Shown: one piece after another, positions 33,170-42,036 of the stretch
Layout: each line of letters begins with the position of its first letter
Position numbering within the stretch: the first letter of the stretch is position 1
Source: Rheinheimera sp. 1928-s
GTDB lineage: Bacteria > Pseudomonadota > Gammaproteobacteria > Enterobacterales > Alteromonadaceae
Direction of reading: 5' to 3'
DNA length: 64,000 nucleotides
Assembly: GCF_029269265.1 (NCBI RefSeq)
Contig: NZ_JARIXP010000004.1
Span: 1 to 64,000, forward strand
Program-made: the position numbers and the translations under genes
Notes under the pieces: generated by a model
What the model was told of the DNA's origin: nothing
What the model saw: only the letters and a program-made list of their open reading frames with translations
Databases searched by the model: none

Positions 33170-33204
33170 GGTGTCAGAGCCTTAAGCTCTGACACCTTTT
33201 TTTT
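33170..33204 (+). terminator. Terminator of the HDOD gene, REP-like core
   Basis: Perfect 11-bp stem GGTGTCAGAGC / GCTCTGACACC, loop CTTAA, followed by eight T. The GTCAGAGC core is shared with the palindromes at 13342 and 47288. It lies between convergent genes and its T-tract touches the lysC stop codon. Confidence 0.9.
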
Positions 33205-34549
33205 AATTAAATAACTTCTGGTGTAACTCTTTCACCACAGCAGCAGCTGACGCATCCTGAACTAAAAAGCACAGGTTGTGGCGCGAAGCCCCGTGACAAA
33301 TCAGTCGCATATTAATTTGCTCCAGAGCGCTAAACAGCTCACCCGTCACCCCTTTGGTGCTGTGCAGATGATTGCCTATCACAGCAACCAGACTTAAGCC
33401 CTGCTCGACTGACACTTCACAGAAACTTTTCAGCTCGTCAATCGCTGGTTCTATCGCCGAATTAAAAGCGCTGCCTGCAGATTCGTCCAAGGTTAAAGCC
33501 ACAGAAATTTCTGAGGTAGTGACTAAATCCACTGATATTTGATGACGACTTAGAATGTCAAAAACCCGGGCTAAAAAACCTGCTGCATGTAACATCGCCG
33601 GGCTTTTTACCGTGATCAGAGTCTGGGATTTACGCAAAGCAATGGCACGATAAGCAGGTTTGTGCTCGACCGTTTTAGCAATCCAGGTACCGCCCGCTTC
33701 TGGTTCGCGGCTTGAACCGACAAAAACTTTGATATTGCGGCGCATAGCCGGAATTAAGGTGGCAGGGTGCAATACTTTAGCGCCAAAAGTAGCCATTTCA
33801 GCCGCTTCATCGAAACTGATTTCATTAATACAACGGGCATCAGAGGTCAAACGTGGGTCTGTGGTGAAGATACCCACTACATCTGTCCAAATTTGCACAG
33901 TAGCAGCATTTAAAGCTTCACCCAATAAAGCTGCACTATAGTCTGAACCGCCCCGGCCTAAGGTCGTGGTTTGTCCGGCTTCATCTGCACCAATAAAACC
34001 TTGAGTGACAACAATATTTTCACGCAGTAAAGGCAATAAATGAGTGTGTGCCAAATCAGCAACAACATCGATTTGTGGTTCACCTTTACCAAAGCGGCTG
34101 TCGGTGCGAAGCACGCGACGCACATCAAAACACTGGGCAGCAGCGCCACGTTCCACTAACACCTGAGTAAATAACACTGAACTTAAACGTTCACCAAAAG
34201 ACTGGATCAGATCTTTGTGCGCGCCGGAATAAACAGCCCCCCCAGTTTCAATCAGGTTACGTAAATCAGCAAGCAAGGTGTTGATTTGAGCGGCCACAGC
34301 TTCAGGCTGTTGCAGAACATTCAGCACAGCCAAAGTAATACGCTCTATGCCTTCAAAGGATGCATAGCGGGCCTGTACTTCAGTTTGTTTAGTGATATCG
34401 ACCAATAAATTGGTCACGCCTGAACTGGCACTGACAGCGACCAGACGGATACTAGGATCGGCTAACACAATATCAGCACAACGGGACATAGCCTGAAAAT
34501 CGGCCACTGAGGTTCCGCCAAATTTGGCGACAATAAGTTGATTAGACAT
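33203..34549 (-). CDS. lysC: Lysine-sensitive aspartate kinase III
   Basis: Phosphorylates aspartate, the first step to lysine, threonine, methionine and diaminopimelate. The 448-residue monofunctional enzyme resembles E. coli LysC: KFGGTSVADFQAMSRCADIVL at the N-terminus, GRGGSDYSAALLGEALNA, and WTDVVGIFTTDPR in the kinase domain. Two ACT domains lie after residue about 300 (SPAMLHAAGFLARVFDILSRH). The start ATG has a GGAGAG Shine-Dalgarno six bases upstream that is buried in a hairpin. A lysine riboswitch lies upstream, so expression should fall when lysine is plentiful. Confidence 0.97.
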   Translation of the reverse strand: MSNQLIVAKFGGTSVADFQAMSRCADIVLADPSIRLVAVSASSGVTNLLVDITKQTEVQARYASFEGIERITLAVLNVLQQPEAVAAQINTLLADLRNLIETGGAVYSGAHKDLIQSFGERLSSVLFTQVLVERGAAAQCFDVRRVLRTDSRFGKGEPQIDVVADLAHTHLLPLLRENIVVTQGFIGADEAGQTTTLGRGGSDYSAALLGEALNAATVQIWTDVVGIFTTDPRLTSDARCINEISFDEAAEMATFGAKVLHPATLIPAMRRNIKVFVGSSREPEAGGTWIAKTVEHKPAYRAIALRKSQTLITVKSPAMLHAAGFLARVFDILSRHQISVDLVTTSEISVALTLDESAGSAFNSAIEPAIDELKSFCEVSVEQGLSLVAVIGNHLHSTKGVTGELFSALEQINMRLICHGASRHNLCFLVQDASAAAVVKELHQKLFN

Positions 34550-35231: not shown

Positions 35232-36479
35232 TTAAGCCAAAGCAAACTGGCCAATAAAATACACCCCTACATAACCCAGACTGTAGCAGCCCAGCAGGTA
35301 ACCTGCCATTTTGAAGTAAGTGCCAAAGGTCAGTTCTTTGACTTTACTCATGGCAATAATACCGGCCGCAGAACCTATGATCAGAATAGAACCACCTACC
35401 CCAGTGGCGTACGTTAAAGTCAGCCATTCTGCTGTCGTCATGGTTAAATCTGCTTTTAACAAAGCCGCAGTTAAAGGCACGTTGTCGATCATCGCAGACA
35501 AAATACCCATCAGGTAGTTGGCTTGCACTGGCTCTAAATACTGATACAAATGCGTAATATTGGTCAGCACACCAATTTCTTTCAGAATACCAACCAGCAG
35601 CAAAACCCCTAAGAAAAACAACAAGGTGTCAAACTCCACCTCACGGATGTAATGCAGAATATTTACACCTGTCTTTTTACGCAGCAGGTACTGAGCCGCT
35701 AAGAACATCACGCCTAAACCAAACAGGAATGTCAGTACAGGCGGGATCTGGAACAGAATGTTAAACAACAGTGTAGAGCCTATAGTCGCTGCAAAAATAC
35801 CTGCAATAATCACATCGGCTTTTTCTATTGGCTTAGGGGATTTCTCCAGCACAATACGACCTGTCATTTTGCGTGACAACAGAATTGCCAATACAGCGAC
35901 GGCAAATAACGAAGGAAGAATTAACAATAACAAATTCGTGATGGTCACTTTGCCCGCTAAAAATAACATCAGGGTGGTCACATCACCTGTGATCAACGAC
36001 ACGCCACCGCTATTGACAGCAAAAATAATCAAGGTGGCGTATTGAATACGTTTTTTCACTTCCAGTTTAATACTGCTGATGACGGCGATAGACACTAGCG
36101 TCGCAGTCACGTTGTCGGCAAATGACGAGAAAATAAAAGCAAAGACTGCAATGATAAACATCAAACGACGTTCAGACAGCTCGGCAGGCAATAAACGCTG
36201 CACAATTTGAGAGATAAAGCCTTTGCTATTGAGATAAGCGACAAAAGTCATAGTTGACATCAAAAACAACCACAAAGTAGCTATTTCTAATAAGTTATGA
36301 TTCAACTGCTCACTGATTTCGCTACTTGTAGCGCCGTGCATTGGAAAAATAAAAGCGAGGATCCAGCAAAGAGTACCGAAAAAAAGTGTCGTTTTTGCCT
36401 TGTTTACGTGGATAATATCCTCTATAACGATCATCACAAAGGCGATTGCCACCAGAGCCAAAATTACTGCGCTTACCAT
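35232..36479 (-). CDS. nhaD: Na+/H+ antiporter NhaD
   Basis: An IT-superfamily antiporter of 415 residues with about 11-13 transmembrane helices, exporting Na+ (and Li+) at alkaline pH. Recognised by VSIAVISSIKLEVKKRIQYA, FSSFADNVTATLVS and INSGGVS-like IFAVNSGGVSLITGDVTTLM. The C-terminal block MIDNVPLTAALLKADL repeats the DN motif of the first half, as expected for inverted structural repeats. The family is typical of marine and halotolerant gammaproteobacteria. It is a single gene with its own terminator. Confidence 0.93.
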   Translation of the reverse strand: MVSAVILALVAIAFVMIVIEDIIHVNKAKTTLFFGTLCWILAFIFPMHGATSSEISEQLNHNLLEIATLWLFLMSTMTFVAYLNSKGFISQIVQRLLPAELSERRLMFIIAVFAFIFSSFADNVTATLVSIAVISSIKLEVKKRIQYATLIIFAVNSGGVSLITGDVTTLMLFLAGKVTITNLLLLILPSLFAVAVLAILLSRKMTGRIVLEKSPKPIEKADVIIAGIFAATIGSTLLFNILFQIPPVLTFLFGLGVMFLAAQYLLRKKTGVNILHYIREVEFDTLLFFLGVLLLVGILKEIGVLTNITHLYQYLEPVQANYLMGILSAMIDNVPLTAALLKADLTMTTAEWLTLTYATGVGGSILIIGSAAGIIAMSKVKELTFGTYFKMAGYLLGCYSLGYVGVYFIGQFALA

Positions 36480-36616: not shown

Positions 36617-37861
36617 ATGATAGCGCCACGTAAAATTATCCGCTGCTTAGATGAGCATTGGACTGTCATTGAGCAGTTGGTCGAACGAAGTGCCAGCGGC
36701 AACTTCAGTTTTCAGGATGTACAACATCTGATCCTGCGCCATAACAATGGCCTGAGCAGTGAACAGGTGTTCCGTGAAGCCCAGCGTTTTTTGCAACTTG
36801 AAATTCTGATCCCTTTGGCTAAATCCAGCCAACTGGAGCTGAATCGTTCTGTGCTGGAATTTGCCCAGCAGTTAATGCAGGAACAGCAGCTTGGGTTAGC
36901 GACTGATATTGAAAGTCGTATCATGGAGCTAAAACGTTTATCAGAACGTATGCAGGAGGCGGCTCAAAGCCGTGACAGCAGCGAACTGCGTCGCTTCTCA
37001 CGGGTGATGGACGAACGTATTCGTGAAGTACTGAAGCACTTTGGTCACAATGAAAGCGCCATTTTATCGCTTGTCGAACGCGCTAAAGCAGACGAAGGCA
37101 AGCTCAGCCTGGCCAGGCGTTATGCCGCTGTGATGGATGCTTTTGATGACTATATAGACCCAGTATTAGCGTTGGTCGACATCAACGGCCCTTTCCAGAA
37201 AACCGTTTCTGATGTGGAAGCTATGCTCAGTGAGTTACTGCAGATCATCGAAGTGACTGGCACGCTGAATACCGAAAAAGAGACGCTTATTCAGCTGCGC
37301 ACCCGCTTGATTGAAATGAACCAGGTAGGCCGTGAGAGTTTAAGCCGTTGTGCTGATTTACTGATGCCACTGAGGGATGAGCTGCGCCGTAATACTTTGC
37401 TGTCCCGTAACGCCAGCTTCTTATTGGGTCAGATGCGTAAAAAAGGCATAGATCTGACGCTGGAACCTTTAGTGCCAACCATCAGCTCCGACAGTCAGCG
37501 TTTCTCTTTAGGTTCAGCCAATCAAATCACCAGCTATATGGCTGAGCTTTGTCAGTACGAACACGATGCCTATCAGTTACCAGAAGAGATTTTGAGCAAC
37601 CACAGTATGCTGATGCAGGTGCCAGAGCTAAAAGACGTGGTCCACAAAGCCAAAGCGCTGAAAAAACTGCCGGATTTAAGTCGCTGGCTGGCCGACAGTT
37701 ACCCTGAATTACCAGTAGATGAGCTGCTTTTCCTCTATCAGGAGCTATCACGCTCGGATGAGCTGACACTGCAGCACAGCGAACACAATACAGAATTGAC
37801 ACTCAATGGTTATAAGCTGACCTTACACCCTTTTCAAAGCAGCGAAGCCGGGACTTTATAA
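36617..37861 (+). CDS. Putative kleisin-like subunit of an SMC complex (MukF/MksF/JetA-like)
   Basis: A 414-residue, largely alpha-helical, charged cytoplasmic protein, first of three contiguous genes. The N-terminal ~100 residues look like a winged-helix domain (DEHWTVIEQLVERSASGNFSFQDVQHL). Then come long helices with coiled-coil character (residues about 100-170 and 200-290) and a C-terminal alpha/beta segment ending LTLNGYKLTLHP, where a kleisin contacts an ATPase head. I recognise no signature motif; the kleisin call rests on size, architecture and order before an MksE-like gene and an SMC-like ATPase. The stop codon abuts the next start (TAAATG). Confidence 0.6.
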   Translation: MIAPRKIIRCLDEHWTVIEQLVERSASGNFSFQDVQHLILRHNNGLSSEQVFREAQRFLQLEILIPLAKSSQLELNRSVLEFAQQLMQEQQLGLATDIESRIMELKRLSERMQEAAQSRDSSELRRFSRVMDERIREVLKHFGHNESAILSLVERAKADEGKLSLARRYAAVMDAFDDYIDPVLALVDINGPFQKTVSDVEAMLSELLQIIEVTGTLNTEKETLIQLRTRLIEMNQVGRESLSRCADLLMPLRDELRRNTLLSRNASFLLGQMRKKGIDLTLEPLVPTISSDSQRFSLGSANQITSYMAELCQYEHDAYQLPEEILSNHSMLMQVPELKDVVHKAKALKKLPDLSRWLADSYPELPVDELLFLYQELSRSDELTLQHSEHNTELTLNGYKLTLHPFQSSEAGTL

Positions 37862-38410
37862 ATGCAATTAAACTTAGATGAACTGACCCAACTGGCTGAA
37901 ATCAGCAAAAAGCTGTCGAACGGTTACCATATCAGCGAACAGGATTTTGCCTTGTGGCAGGAACTGGATTTGCAGGAAGATTCCTACACAGCTCTGTTTG
38001 GTGCTTTAGGCAATACATTAAAACGCGACAGCCGTGGTTTCTTTTATTTTGAAGTGGATGATGCCACCGCCAGCATGGGTAAAATTTCCCGTCTGTTTGC
38101 TTTGACTTTATTTGCTTTGGTGGAGTTTTATGCCGATAAAGGCCAGGACCCACTGCGGGCTTTGTTTGAACATGAAATTACCACAGAAATTTGGGGCCAG
38201 CTGTTACAACAGCAATACCACTTATTTGAGCAACTGGAAATTTTCTCAGTGACCGATATGAAACGTGAAATCGCCAACCGCTTGTTACGTTATGGCCTGG
38301 CGCGGCCAAGCGGCGATCAGATCAAATTATTATCCCCTGTGTATCGTTATTTAGACGCGCTGATGGATGTGGATCACAGCGCTGTAACAGAGGAGAATGC
38401 AGATGTCTGA
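37862..38410 (+). CDS. Putative MukE/MksE/JetB-like subunit
   Basis: A 182-residue protein with helix-rich N-terminus and the segment GFFYFEVDDATASMGKISRLFALTLFALVEFYADKG. This resembles the winged-helix pattern of MksE/JetB accessory subunits, which bind the kleisin and modulate the SMC ATPase. A second winged-helix-like stretch (IFSVTDMKREIANRLLRYGLARPSGDQIKLLSPVYRYLDAL) follows, giving the tandem-wing layout expected. It starts directly after the first gene and overlaps the third by eight bases. No catalytic motif is seen. Confidence 0.62.
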   Translation: MQLNLDELTQLAEISKKLSNGYHISEQDFALWQELDLQEDSYTALFGALGNTLKRDSRGFFYFEVDDATASMGKISRLFALTLFALVEFYADKGQDPLRALFEHEITTEIWGQLLQQQYHLFEQLEIFSVTDMKREIANRLLRYGLARPSGDQIKLLSPVYRYLDALMDVDHSAVTEENADV

Positions 38411-41267
38411 GCAGCTTAATTCAACAAAATCAGAGCTGTATGGCTTAACCAAACTTGCATTGCTCAATACTGCTGGCTACGCCAAATGTGTGATCCCGCT
38501 GGATGACTCGTCCTCTATTTGCGCACCCAACAATACGGGTAAAAGTTCGGTGATCAACGCCCTGCAGTTCCCACTGATTAACGATTTGCGTTTAACAGAG
38601 TGGGACGGCCACGACTTAGACGAAACCCGTAAGTTTTACTTCGGCACAGACCAAAGCTATATCCTACTGGAAGCTAATTTGCCAGACGGCCCTGTCGTCA
38701 TTGGGGTAGCTGGTCGGGGTAAAATTGCAGGTTACGCTTTCCAGTATTTTTGCTACAAAGGCAAACTGGATTTAAACCATTATTTAGATGGCAAAAGTTA
38801 TGTGCGTTACAACAAGCTGGACCATCATTTACGCAGTTTAGGTTTTGATCCTATTGAATTAAAACAGTCTGAACTGAATGCCATGCTGACAGGTGGTGCC
38901 ACACCTTTTGACAGCCGCATCAATCTTCGGATGATCCCGTTAGCAAACGTTTCTGATGCACCCGTCTACAAAGACATTTTCCGTCGTATTCTGAACCTGC
39001 ACCGCCTGACCGCTCAGGATGTAAAACGTCTGTTATTGCCTGTATTTGCCCGGCATTTAGGCGACCCTAAGGTCGATTTTTATCAGGTTTGGCACAACGC
39101 CTTTGAAAAGGTCAATAAAGACAGACGTGAGCTAAAAGCTTTGGAAAACCAACAGGAAGCTGTCACAGCCCTTGAAAGCCTGCTGGAAAACCGCTCTGTA
39201 CTCAAAGGCCGTTTAGCGACTTATGCTCCTAAGCTGGATGTGGCTTTAACTGAATTCCATAGCTACTTTGACGATCAGCAAGAGCTATTAAACGAGCAGC
39301 TGACCGGCTTATTGGCTGAGAAAAGCCAGCTGGAAGAACGTCAACGTTTGTATGTTGGCCAAATTAAAGAATTGTCTGGCCGTCAGCAGCAGTTACAGCA
39401 ATGGTTTGGCGAATTTGATGGTCTGTCACAAAAATTCAGCTTAAGTAATGAAGCCACCTTGCAGACCAACTTAAGCAATATCCGCGCAGCCTACGAGCAG
39501 TTAAGCCACAGCTTACAAGGTGCCAGTCAGGTTAATGCCACAACTCTGGCGCATCAAAAAAGCCAGAGTGCCAAGCAGTTGCAAAGCTTAAAGCTGCAGC
39601 TGAAAAACCTCGAATTTAACCTGTATTCCCGTCTGCGCGAAGATTTAAGCCTGCCGGAAGTACAGCAAATTACCCGCATTCTGAATCCGGATTTGTTGTC
39701 GCTTTCGACCACTGGTGGCGGTGATATTGAAATTCTGGACGATGCACTGTTTTCAGAGCAGCTGGAGAAAATTGCCGATTGCTTTAAACAAGGCAAATTG
39801 CATTTACCTGGTGTGGTGATTGACCTGCATCATTTGCAGCCGGTAGAGCAAAATAGCTTAGAGAACAAAATCCAGCTGAAAGAACAAATTGATGCGCTGC
39901 AGCAAACTTTACATACGCTGGAGCAGCAGTTAGCTGTTGCTGGTGATTTGGCCGGTAAAACCCGCGAGAAAGACCGTTTGTATCAGGATCTGTTACAAGC
40001 CGAAGAAGACATTAAGAAATTTGGCCGCTACCAGCAAATGCTGGAATTCAGTGACGAGCAACAGGCATTGCAGTCCGAGCTTGAAATTGAAGAAGACAAG
40101 CTGCAGGAACAGTTGGCTGAAGTGCAGCACAAGGCCTCTACCCTGTCTGATCGTCGCAACTTAGTCGGCAATAAGCAGGAACAAATTAAACGTCAGGCCG
40201 AACGTATTGAGCAAGAGAAAAAAGAGCGGATCGACTTCCAGCTCGATTTCTACTCAGGCAAAGTCACACCTTATCCTATTGAAGTGACCTTGGATTTTGA
40301 CAACTTAGCCGACGTATTACGCGACTTTAATAAGCAGTGTAATGAGCTGAAGCTTATCGACGTTAATATCAAAAACACCTACCTGTTTATTTTTAACGCC
40401 GGTATTACTAAGTTTGAAGTCGAATCCGATGAAGAGCTGAAGTTCCAGAAACTAATCAGCGCTTTCCATCATTTAGACAAAGAGCGTGAAGCTATTGAAC
40501 GTCGTGCCCGCGTCGCTTTGACTGAAGTGGCGTCTACGCTCAAAGGCTTACGTGATGATTTAAACCGTCTACACAGGGAGCTAAATAGCTTTAACCGCGG
40601 TATCTGGCGTCATCAGATTTCCAACTTGCAGGATTTTAAAATTGAAATTGTCGACCGCGCTTTATTGGTTGGCCATATCGATACTATTCTGACCACCTCA
40701 GAAGCTTATCAGCAAGGGGATACGCTGGATTTATTGGCCCCTAACGCCAGCAGCAATGAGCGTGAAGTACAGGCAGCCAAAGACTATTTAATTCAGGCCG
40801 CCAGTGAAAAAGGTGGTTTAACTTTATCCGACTTGTTTGATATCCGCTTTAAAGTAGTGAATCGAGCCGGTGAAATAGAGTTCTTTGACAAAATTGACTC
40901 AGCAGGCTCTAACGGGACCCGTATTACCATTAAGTTATTGTGCGGTATGTTATTTATCCGCCAGTTATTGTCTGAGCGTGAACGCGGTAAATACCGTATT
41001 CCAATTTATATCGACGAAGCAGCCGATATTGACCCGCATAACCAACAGGCGCTGATCGAAACCGCGCTGAACTTTGGCTTTGTGCCCATCTTTGCTTCGG
41101 TTAAACCTCAGACCTCGTGCCGTTATATAGTGCCAATCCGCACTGTAGCCGGTGGTGCGCAAAACTGGGTGGATGAAAAAGACTGGATTTTATGTGAAAA
41201 AATTCCGGTGGCTGGTGAAGAAACTGGCGAATTGACAGCAGTGGAGTTGGCTGAAACTGAAGCTTGA
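38403..41267 (+). CDS. SMC-like ATPase (MukB/MksB/JetC-like) of a three-gene condensin-type operon
   Basis: A 954-residue protein with ATPase halves at both ends and long coiled coils between (about residues 230-330, 355-400, 490-640). The P-loop is APNNTGKSS (residues 41-49), with Ala where the first Gly of GxxxxGKS is usual. Walker B is IPIYIDEAAD (about 866-875), preceded by SAGSNGTRITIK (about 833-844) where other SMC-like proteins have LSGGQ. The start at 38403 is chosen because GAGGAG lies seven bases upstream; an ATG at 38397 is only one base from it. No TOPRIM (JetD/MksG) gene is adjacent. Confidence 0.72.
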   Translation: MSEQLNSTKSELYGLTKLALLNTAGYAKCVIPLDDSSSICAPNNTGKSSVINALQFPLINDLRLTEWDGHDLDETRKFYFGTDQSYILLEANLPDGPVVIGVAGRGKIAGYAFQYFCYKGKLDLNHYLDGKSYVRYNKLDHHLRSLGFDPIELKQSELNAMLTGGATPFDSRINLRMIPLANVSDAPVYKDIFRRILNLHRLTAQDVKRLLLPVFARHLGDPKVDFYQVWHNAFEKVNKDRRELKALENQQEAVTALESLLENRSVLKGRLATYAPKLDVALTEFHSYFDDQQELLNEQLTGLLAEKSQLEERQRLYVGQIKELSGRQQQLQQWFGEFDGLSQKFSLSNEATLQTNLSNIRAAYEQLSHSLQGASQVNATTLAHQKSQSAKQLQSLKLQLKNLEFNLYSRLREDLSLPEVQQITRILNPDLLSLSTTGGGDIEILDDALFSEQLEKIADCFKQGKLHLPGVVIDLHHLQPVEQNSLENKIQLKEQIDALQQTLHTLEQQLAVAGDLAGKTREKDRLYQDLLQAEEDIKKFGRYQQMLEFSDEQQALQSELEIEEDKLQEQLAEVQHKASTLSDRRNLVGNKQEQIKRQAERIEQEKKERIDFQLDFYSGKVTPYPIEVTLDFDNLADVLRDFNKQCNELKLIDVNIKNTYLFIFNAGITKFEVESDEELKFQKLISAFHHLDKEREAIERRARVALTEVASTLKGLRDDLNRLHRELNSFNRGIWRHQISNLQDFKIEIVDRALLVGHIDTILTTSEAYQQGDTLDLLAPNASSNEREVQAAKDYLIQAASEKGGLTLSDLFDIRFKVVNRAGEIEFFDKIDSAGSNGTRITIKLLCGMLFIRQLLSERERGKYRIPIYIDEAADIDPHNQQALIETALNFGFVPIFASVKPQTSCRYIVPIRTVAGGAQNWVDEKDWILCEKIPVAGEETGELTAVELAETEA

Positions 41268-41292: not shown

Positions 41293-42036
41293 TCAACTCC
41301 ACAGCTTGCCAACTGGAGTTGATGCCGAAAAATGTTGCGCCACCTGAGCCTGAAATAATTCAGCACAGGCAATGGCGTCTGTCACCGCATGATGAGGTTG
41401 ATAAGCCGGTAGCTGGTACCGCTGCCGGCAATCGGCAAGGCGTAACGAAGGCTTGGATTGCCCTCTGATACTTCGCCACCATCCCTGTAGACCTGATTGA
41501 GTAAAACCCCGCTCTAACGCCAAAGTATCAATCATGGGAAAAACGATACCTTCACCTAAACGACTCATCAAACCATGATACAAAAAGGCGCGCTCGATAG
41601 GCAGATGATGCACCAGCACGACTTTTCCTGCCAAAGCCTGCAACAAAGGCTCAATATAGAGTTCTAAATCAGCAGCCTGCGCTATGGCGCTGTCGGTAAT
41701 ACCATGCACTATCACTGAACTTTCGTTGAGCTGTACTCTGGGTTTGACCAGATAACTTTGTGCCTTGCTGCTGTGAATTCGCTCCAACGTTAGCGGCACC
41801 AGCCCTATGCTGACGATGCCATCGCGTACAGGATCTAAGCCTGTGGTTTCAAAATCTAAAGCGACAAAAGAGATCTCTTGCAAAGCAGTCTCAGCAGCTG
41901 CAGCGCCTGCCTGATAAAAAACCTTTAACCTGGGGTCTTTGGCCTTTAACTCCAACTGCTGCATGGTGTTTTGCCAGTTTTTGCTCAGCATCTGCAGTGG
42001 ATCTGTTTTTAATTCCTGCTTTTTCAGATAAAACAT
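41293..42036 (-). CDS. DnaQ-like DEDDh 3'-5' exonuclease
   Basis: A 247-residue protein with the three exonuclease motifs: ExoI VALDFETTGLDPVRDGIVSIG, ExoII in VLVHHLPIERAFLYHGL, and ExoIII HHAVTDAIACAELFQAQ with the catalytic His and Asp. The first ~55 residues form a charged helical extension. It is not the polymerase III epsilon subunit, which lies elsewhere; this version travels with the cNMP/CBS/nucleotidyltransferase gene upstream (10-bp gap) in many Alteromonadales and pseudomonads. Convergent with the SMC-like operon, with only 25 bp between. Confidence 0.88.
   Translation of the reverse strand: MFYLKKQELKTDPLQMLSKNWQNTMQQLELKAKDPRLKVFYQAGAAAAETALQEISFVALDFETTGLDPVRDGIVSIGLVPLTLERIHSSKAQSYLVKPRVQLNESSVIVHGITDSAIAQAADLELYIEPLLQALAGKVVLVHHLPIERAFLYHGLMSRLGEGIVFPMIDTLALERGFTQSGLQGWWRSIRGQSKPSLRLADCRQRYQLPAYQPHHAVTDAIACAELFQAQVAQHFSASTPVGKLWS

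Follow-up and report, generated by a model that had tools for sequence, protein, structure and literature searches.

A nuclease-free mksFEB operon in Rheinheimera that probably encodes a second chromosomal condensin beside SMC-ScpAB

The window analysed here is a stretch of 64,000 nucleotides from Rheinheimera sp. 1928-s, located on contig 19 of a genome of 4.64 Mb in 24 contigs (G000) whose closest named records are Rheinheimera, the MksB of R. faecalis being 99% identical. It contains three contiguous forward-strand genes that appear to encode an MksBEF-type complex: mksF for the kleisin subunit (36617..37861, 414 residues), mksE for the KITE subunit (37862..38410, 182 residues) and mksB for an ATPase of the SMC (structural maintenance of chromosomes) type (38397..41267, 956 residues). 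The junction between mksF and mksE measures 0 bp, and mksE overlaps mksB by 14 bp when the latter is read from the ATG at 38397, or by 8 bp from the ATG at 38403, which gives a protein of 954 residues. An earlier note on this DNA had described three contiguous genes of 414, 182 and 954 residues with a 0-bp junction and an 8-bp overlap, and the open reading frames confirm this with mksB starting at 38403.

The subunit families were assigned from NCBIfam and Pfam profiles, from hhalign comparisons and from Foldseek searches with predicted models. MksF matches NF040857 over residues 1-392 (E = 9.5e-72; 242 bits, equivalog cut-off 750), MksE matches NF040858 (E = 1.3e-33; 116.5 bits, cut-off 400) as well as the Pfam MksE family PF21980 (E = 1.1e-34), and MksB matches NF040859 over 920 of its 956 residues (13-932; E = 5.4e-169; 564 bits, cut-off 1900). 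The names of two of these profiles look swapped: NF040857, with 412 positions and hence of kleisin size, is called MksB, and NF040859, with 926 positions and of ATPase size, is called MksF, whereas published work gives the name MksB to the SMC ATPase. Among the 76 named mksB loci that we collected, an mksF-like frame was found at 70 and an mksE-like frame likewise at 70, the exceptions without a picked frame being a truncated locus in Rheinheimera (L084) and loci of Pseudomonas. Because all three proteins have near full-length family matches and F-like and E-like frames stand beside mksB elsewhere, the three-gene arrangement is confirmed as real and far beyond chance.

In hhalign the head of MksB, and only the head, scores as homologous to Escherichia coli MukB (96.8%), and MksE to MukE (94%). 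The AlphaFold2 model of MksE (pLDDT 82.9) retrieved only MukE, MukE-MukF, MukBEF or Wadjet JetABC entries at Foldseek PDB ranks 1-19, 14 of them with E <= 0.001 and all with modest TM-scores by query length (0.36-0.50). For the MksF model (pLDDT 76.7), ranks 1-11 are MukBEF, MukE-MukF, MukF and JetABC entries, two of them with E <= 0.001, at low TM-scores by the same measure (0.17-0.33). The earlier note had proposed a MukF-MukE-MukB-type set resembling MksFEB, and this is borne out by the NCBIfam matches to all three proteins and the Foldseek ranks of F and E; it had also named a lack of winged-helix folds in the first two proteins as a finding that would speak against it, and their best PDB matches are MukF, MukE and Wadjet entries, at modest TM-scores and with single winged helices left unassigned. 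Single-sequence PDB searches with MksF, MksE and MksB gave no relevant match. With profiles, MksE found MukE weakly (5.2e-4), MksB retrieved a phage tail needle besides two designed coiled coils, and MksF found nothing relevant.

The ATPase motifs were read from the translation and from an alignment of 12 MksB sequences, the window included, in which the other 11 range from 80% to 24% identity to the window. Walker A reads APNNTGKS (residues 43-50; 38523..38546, forward strand), Walker B reads IPIYIDE (residues 868-874; 40998..41018, forward), and SAGSNGT (residues 835-841; 40899..40919, forward) is probably the equivalent of the ABC signature, a role suggested by its place before Walker B. 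N45, N46, G48 and K49 are invariant in the alignment, as are S838, G840 and T841 and, in the Walker B region, Y871, D873, E874 and A875; SNGT occurs in 11 of the 12 sequences and STGT in the remaining one. The earlier note had quoted the P-loop and SAGSNGT as departures from the canon; the motifs are present, but the invariant residues and the near-constant SNGT in the 12 MksB sequences indicate that SAGSNGT and the NN-containing P-loop are the form proper to the family and no peculiarity of this gene.

The window genome also contains SMC (a frame of 1147 residues at C1:1051593) and adjacent ScpA and ScpB genes (C19:225-226 kb), while the N-terminal MukB family PF04310 has no match in it and did match the E. 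coli control. In Pseudomonas aeruginosa, which has both SMC and MksBEF, the two contribute differently to how the chromosome is organised and segregated (PMC7485682), and the coexistence of SMC-ScpAB and MksBEF in the window genome is the same situation. We consider it probable, at about 0.82, that the operon encodes an MksBEF condensin, the second chromosomal one beside SMC-ScpAB and comparable to that of P. aeruginosa. The divergent condensin that the earlier note had offered as one alternative is thus the reading we favour, and complexes of this kind are already known. By analogy with P. aeruginosa MksBEF and with MukBEF, the three products would assemble into an ATP-driven clamp in which the MksF kleisin links two MksB ATPases and carries the MksE KITE subunits. 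The two MksB arms would close over DNA, ATP would drive engagement of the heads and MksF would connect them, and the clamp most likely bridges or extrudes loops of chromosomal DNA and helps with chromosome packing and segregation beside SMC-ScpAB, as is reported for P. aeruginosa MksBEF.

The earlier note had found the TOPRIM subunit missing on both sides of the genes, and no such partner was detected elsewhere in the genome: neither JetD_C (PF09983) nor the TOPRIM family DUF7281 has a match anywhere in the 4.64 Mb. A wider survey covered the 39 genus and family genomes with a strong MksB match (20 from the genus set and 19 further ones from the family sample). JetD_C was found in four of these (G005, G018, G108 and G255), each time on a different contig from mksB, and DUF7281 in one (G108), where it overlaps the JetD_C match. 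A profile built from five DUF7281-type proteins gave nothing at the 76 named loci or in the window, a result that speaks only for that subtype since the profile failed to detect 13 of 15 controls carrying other TOPRIM types and the two that it found were training loci. A DUF2399 search matched no genome and no control, so it is uninformative. The IFDR motif, a JetD contact at the KITE N-terminus, does not occur in the first 40 residues of MksE, nor in the first 60 of JetB from a congener's Wadjet (L132).

On a different reading the locus would defend against plasmids in the manner of MksBEFG or Wadjet, with a nuclease gene at some other place or one that has diverged beyond detection. MksBEFG and JetABCD restrict plasmids (PMC10123090, PMC10586767), and PMC10123090 also records the four-gene order mksFEBG in Pseudomonas species. 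Distant members of the MksB family carry a short TOPRIM-like gene directly 3' of mksB. However, the window genome lacks both JetD_C and DUF7281 matches, none of the 39 strong-MksB genomes has either on the mksB contig, and MksB is present in 20 of 22 genus genomes against three of 22 for JetD_C (G005, G012 and, weakly, G018). Defence therefore seems improbable. G012, which like one other congener lacks MksB, has the type I Wadjet L132 together with a second operon, L167, encoding proteins of 1226, 206, 414 and 288 residues, the last of which has overlapping JetD_C and DUF7281 matches.

MksB is present nearly throughout the genus, and the operon has a conserved chromosomal site. Beyond the genus set, MksB was matched in 48 of 295 genomes of the family sample (34 strong, 14 weak), 10 of 369 of the class sample and 25 of 398 of the phylum sample. 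The 34 strong family matches come from 15 genomes of the window's genus, in two of which the match is spread over contigs, from 15 of genus g43, taken as Pseudoalteromonas, and from one genome in each of four other genera. Divergently upstream of mksF lies an antiporter gene that the earlier note had labelled nhaD (35232..36479, reverse strand), its Pfam match itself being CitMHS (1.4e-28), followed by a lysC-like aspartokinase gene (33203..34549, reverse; named from its translation), which belongs to the conserved synteny alone; both lie outside the complex. Among the 76 named loci, nhaD and lysC are both upstream of mksF in 41 of 43 Pseudoalteromonas loci, and lysC alone in the other two, so that an nhaD-like gene stands beside mksF in 41 and lysC within 5 kb of it in all 43. 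The pair is also upstream in eight of 11 assessable Rheinheimera loci, with neither gene in the remaining three (three more could not be assessed), in one of three assessable loci from other genera or metagenome-assembled genomes (two more not assessable), and in none of the nine assessable Pseudomonas/Stutzerimonas loci (five more had no picked mksF), where mksFEB occupies another chromosomal site. The three Rheinheimera loci, from R. pleomorphica, R. aquimaris and R. nanhaiensis (L054, L055 and L104), have mksFEB apparently at another site.

Downstream, a dnaQ-like exonuclease gene (41293..42036, reverse strand; RNase_T, 4.3e-12) converges on mksB at 25 bp from its stop; an nhaD-like and a dnaQ-like gene flank the operon, as the earlier note had it. 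The dnaQ-like gene belongs to a nuclease family and is so close to mksB that it could be thought of as a replacement effector. It is however on the opposite strand, its place is taken by other genes in relatives, and in L046 and L049 mksB and the dnaQ-like gene are separated by further genes, which makes such a role very improbable and marks it as no conserved partner. In relatives the gene 3' of mksB is TamA/TamB-like, DUF4136-like or of other kinds (names given by eye), and since it differs between groups, F-E-B looks like the whole conserved unit.

The ratio of nonsynonymous to synonymous substitution rates (dN/dS) was taken from two pairs, because farther pairs gave invalid dS (-1) or saturation. 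Between the window and L044 it is 0.022 for mksF, 0.038 for mksE, 0.013 for mksB, 0.032 for nhaD and 0.034 for lysC; between the window and L048 it is 0.032, 0.024 and 0.034 for mksF, mksE and mksB and 0.031 for lysC, with no value for nhaD. mksFEB is under purifying selection. The gene set appears chromosomal and vertically inherited and does not look like a mobile element, and the plasmid- or phage-related system that the earlier note had considered finds nothing pointing to it, the locus being syntenic and chromosomal in Rheinheimera and Pseudoalteromonas. Decay of a former defence system would fit the JetD_C and DUF7281 searches, in which no nuclease partner appeared, but the three open frames, the preserved invariant ATPase residues and dN/dS values of about 0.01-0.04 in unsaturated pairs make decay most unlikely. 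The weakest alternative, an unrelated ATPase of the RecN/SbcC/AAA15 type with chance neighbours, which the earlier note had named as the finding that would overturn it, could appeal to Pfam alone, where MksB has just weak P-loop matches (AAA_29 0.2, AAA_23 1.0), but is contradicted by the 920-residue NF040859 match, which places the protein in the Mks family, and by the F-like and E-like frames at 70 of 76 loci each.

Several observations weigh against the reading as an MksBEF condensin. All three NCBIfam scores are far under the curated equivalog cut-offs and so do not certify that the set is equivalent to Pseudomonas MksBEF; the NF040859 cut-off is exceeded in 16 of 398 phylum-sample genomes, all of family f184 (taken as Pseudomonadaceae by score), and we read it as tuned to that lineage and for this reason do not count the equivalog score as defining. 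The window MksB is about 33% identical to the two Pseudomonas-type rows of the alignment, the Pseudomonas group is not sister to Rheinheimera and Pseudoalteromonas in the best trees, in which the two nuclease-free groups do not group together, and two of the 22 genus genomes lack MksB. MksF has no hhalign similarity to MukF (0.1%) or to JetA of L132 (0.2%). The low hhalign values for JetC and JetB of L132 (12.9% and 1.5%) favour the reading when set beside those for the MukB head and MukE. PF21980 also matches JetB of L132 (3.7e-17), and PADLOC gives MksB weak matches to JetC1 (2.9e-5; best stretch 17-65) and LmuB (5.1e-5). As the hhalign targets (MukBEF and JetABC of L132) were single sequences, and in view of the PF21980 match, the hhalign-based distance to Wadjet is overstated and the contrast is one of degree. 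PADLOC found no match for MksF or MksE and no JetA or JetB match in the window, and recognised all four subunits of the congener's type I Wadjet L132 as a positive control.

Among known systems, P. aeruginosa MksBEF agrees with the window in subunit families, F-E-B order, protein sizes and coexistence with SMC-ScpAB (PMC7485682, PMC10586767). Named Pseudomonas/Stutzerimonas loci are 33-34% identical to the window in MksB (best segment), 30-32% in MksF and 35-36% in MksE. E. coli MukBEF is alike in that the MukB head and MukE are detectably homologous to MksB and MksE, and differs in the length of MukB (1486 residues), in a MukF that hhalign does not detect, and in that no PF04310 MukB occurs in the window genome. 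Wadjet type I of L132 shares the kleisin-KITE-SMC architecture and a JetB that matches PF21980, whereas its JetC has 1130 residues, its JetA 508 (DUF3375) and its JetD 417; the PADLOC families for Jet-type SMC, kleisin and KITE proteins recognise L132, while among the window proteins only MksB has matches, and weak ones. Systems of other gammaproteobacteria that combine MksFEB with a DUF7281-type gene (G473, G474, G602, G808 and G333) belong to the same NCBIfam MksB family and have the F-E-B order of the window, their MksF and MksE being recognised with profiles from the window's group, but have an extra gene 3' of mksB that the window lacks.

This extra gene matches DUF7281 directly 3' of mksB in G473, G474, G602 and G333 (the last below the Pfam cut-off), and in G808, with the order 424, 197, 923 and 293 residues, the last protein is DUF7281-type by alignment and not by Pfam. 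It encodes 277 residues in G333, 287 in G602 and 293 in G808, the open frame being longer in both G473 and G474; the G473 protein also has a weak DUF2399 match (0.003). All five proteins share the pattern VEN...DYD-x-VG in the alignment, which we take to be typical of TopVI/Spo11-like TOPRIM domains. JetD_C missed the DUF7281-type genes in the four of these genomes that were searched with it, and the JetD_C match of G333 is on another contig. The loci at which such a short TOPRIM-like gene of the DUF7281 type comes after MksFEB are L135, L138, L139, L166 and L193.

Trees from MksB heads, full MksB and MksF+MksE place Rheinheimera and Pseudoalteromonas with the TOPRIM-bearing forms except G333, Pseudomonas falling outside this grouping (support 93/99, 100/99 and 95/94, respectively). 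Three TOPRIM-bearing forms enter this grouping in the head and full-MksB trees and four in the MksF+MksE tree, L193 (G808) being present in the last tree alone. The MksF+MksE tree holds 28 of 31 rows, as L036, L106 and L118 lack an F or E frame, and the TOPRIM-first operon rows of the head tree were labelled TOPRIM-bearing mostly by gene position, its count of changes being left unused. In approximately unbiased (AU) tests, a single clade of nuclease-free forms was rejected for MksB heads (p = 0.006) and full MksB (p = 0.0014) and was not rejected for MksF+MksE (p = 0.08). The outgroup of the full-MksB and MksF+MksE trees consists of a single long branch, L038 of genome G333, the residue composition of the TOPRIM-bearing rows is odd in both, and identity opposes the trees, the window MksB being 33% identical to Pseudomonas-type rows against 29-31% to TOPRIM-bearing rows. 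Given this single long-branch outgroup, and because the AU tests were chosen after the first tree had been seen, two losses are suggested and not shown. It is possible, at somewhat less than an even chance, that nuclease-free MksBEF arose at least twice, the lineage of Rheinheimera and Pseudoalteromonas having lost a short TOPRIM nuclease of the DUF7281 type in an event separate from that in Pseudomonas, such that a plasmid-cutting machine became a chromosomal condensin in parallel.

A further arrangement was observed in compact four-gene operons at L156, L157, L158, L159, L160, L161, L162 and L163 (genomes G297, G191, G556, G541, G181, G068, G222 and G274, in this order), L165 (G072) and L194 (G808). 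Their proteins have, in order, 237-273, 956-1013 (SMC-like), 456-486 and 181-203 residues. The first shows weak JetD_C, Toprim, DUF7281 or PADLOC JetD matches in those tested (L161, L159 and L156). In L161 the last protein matches MksE PF21980 (1.7e-12) and the third has no match; the SMC-like protein is barely recognised in the members tested. The operons possibly represent a TOPRIM-first Wadjet/Mks variant that these profile libraries do not cover.

Among the open-access papers searched, we found none that mentions DUF7281 and none that mentions MksB together with Pseudoalteromonas. With this locus the range of nuclease-free MksBEF comes to include Rheinheimera and Pseudoalteromonas, where it occupies a single conserved place in the chromosome. 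If the tree with two losses is true, a comparison of the TOPRIM-carrying and TOPRIM-free forms of one protein family would make the proposed change from plasmid defence to chromosome organisation directly testable.

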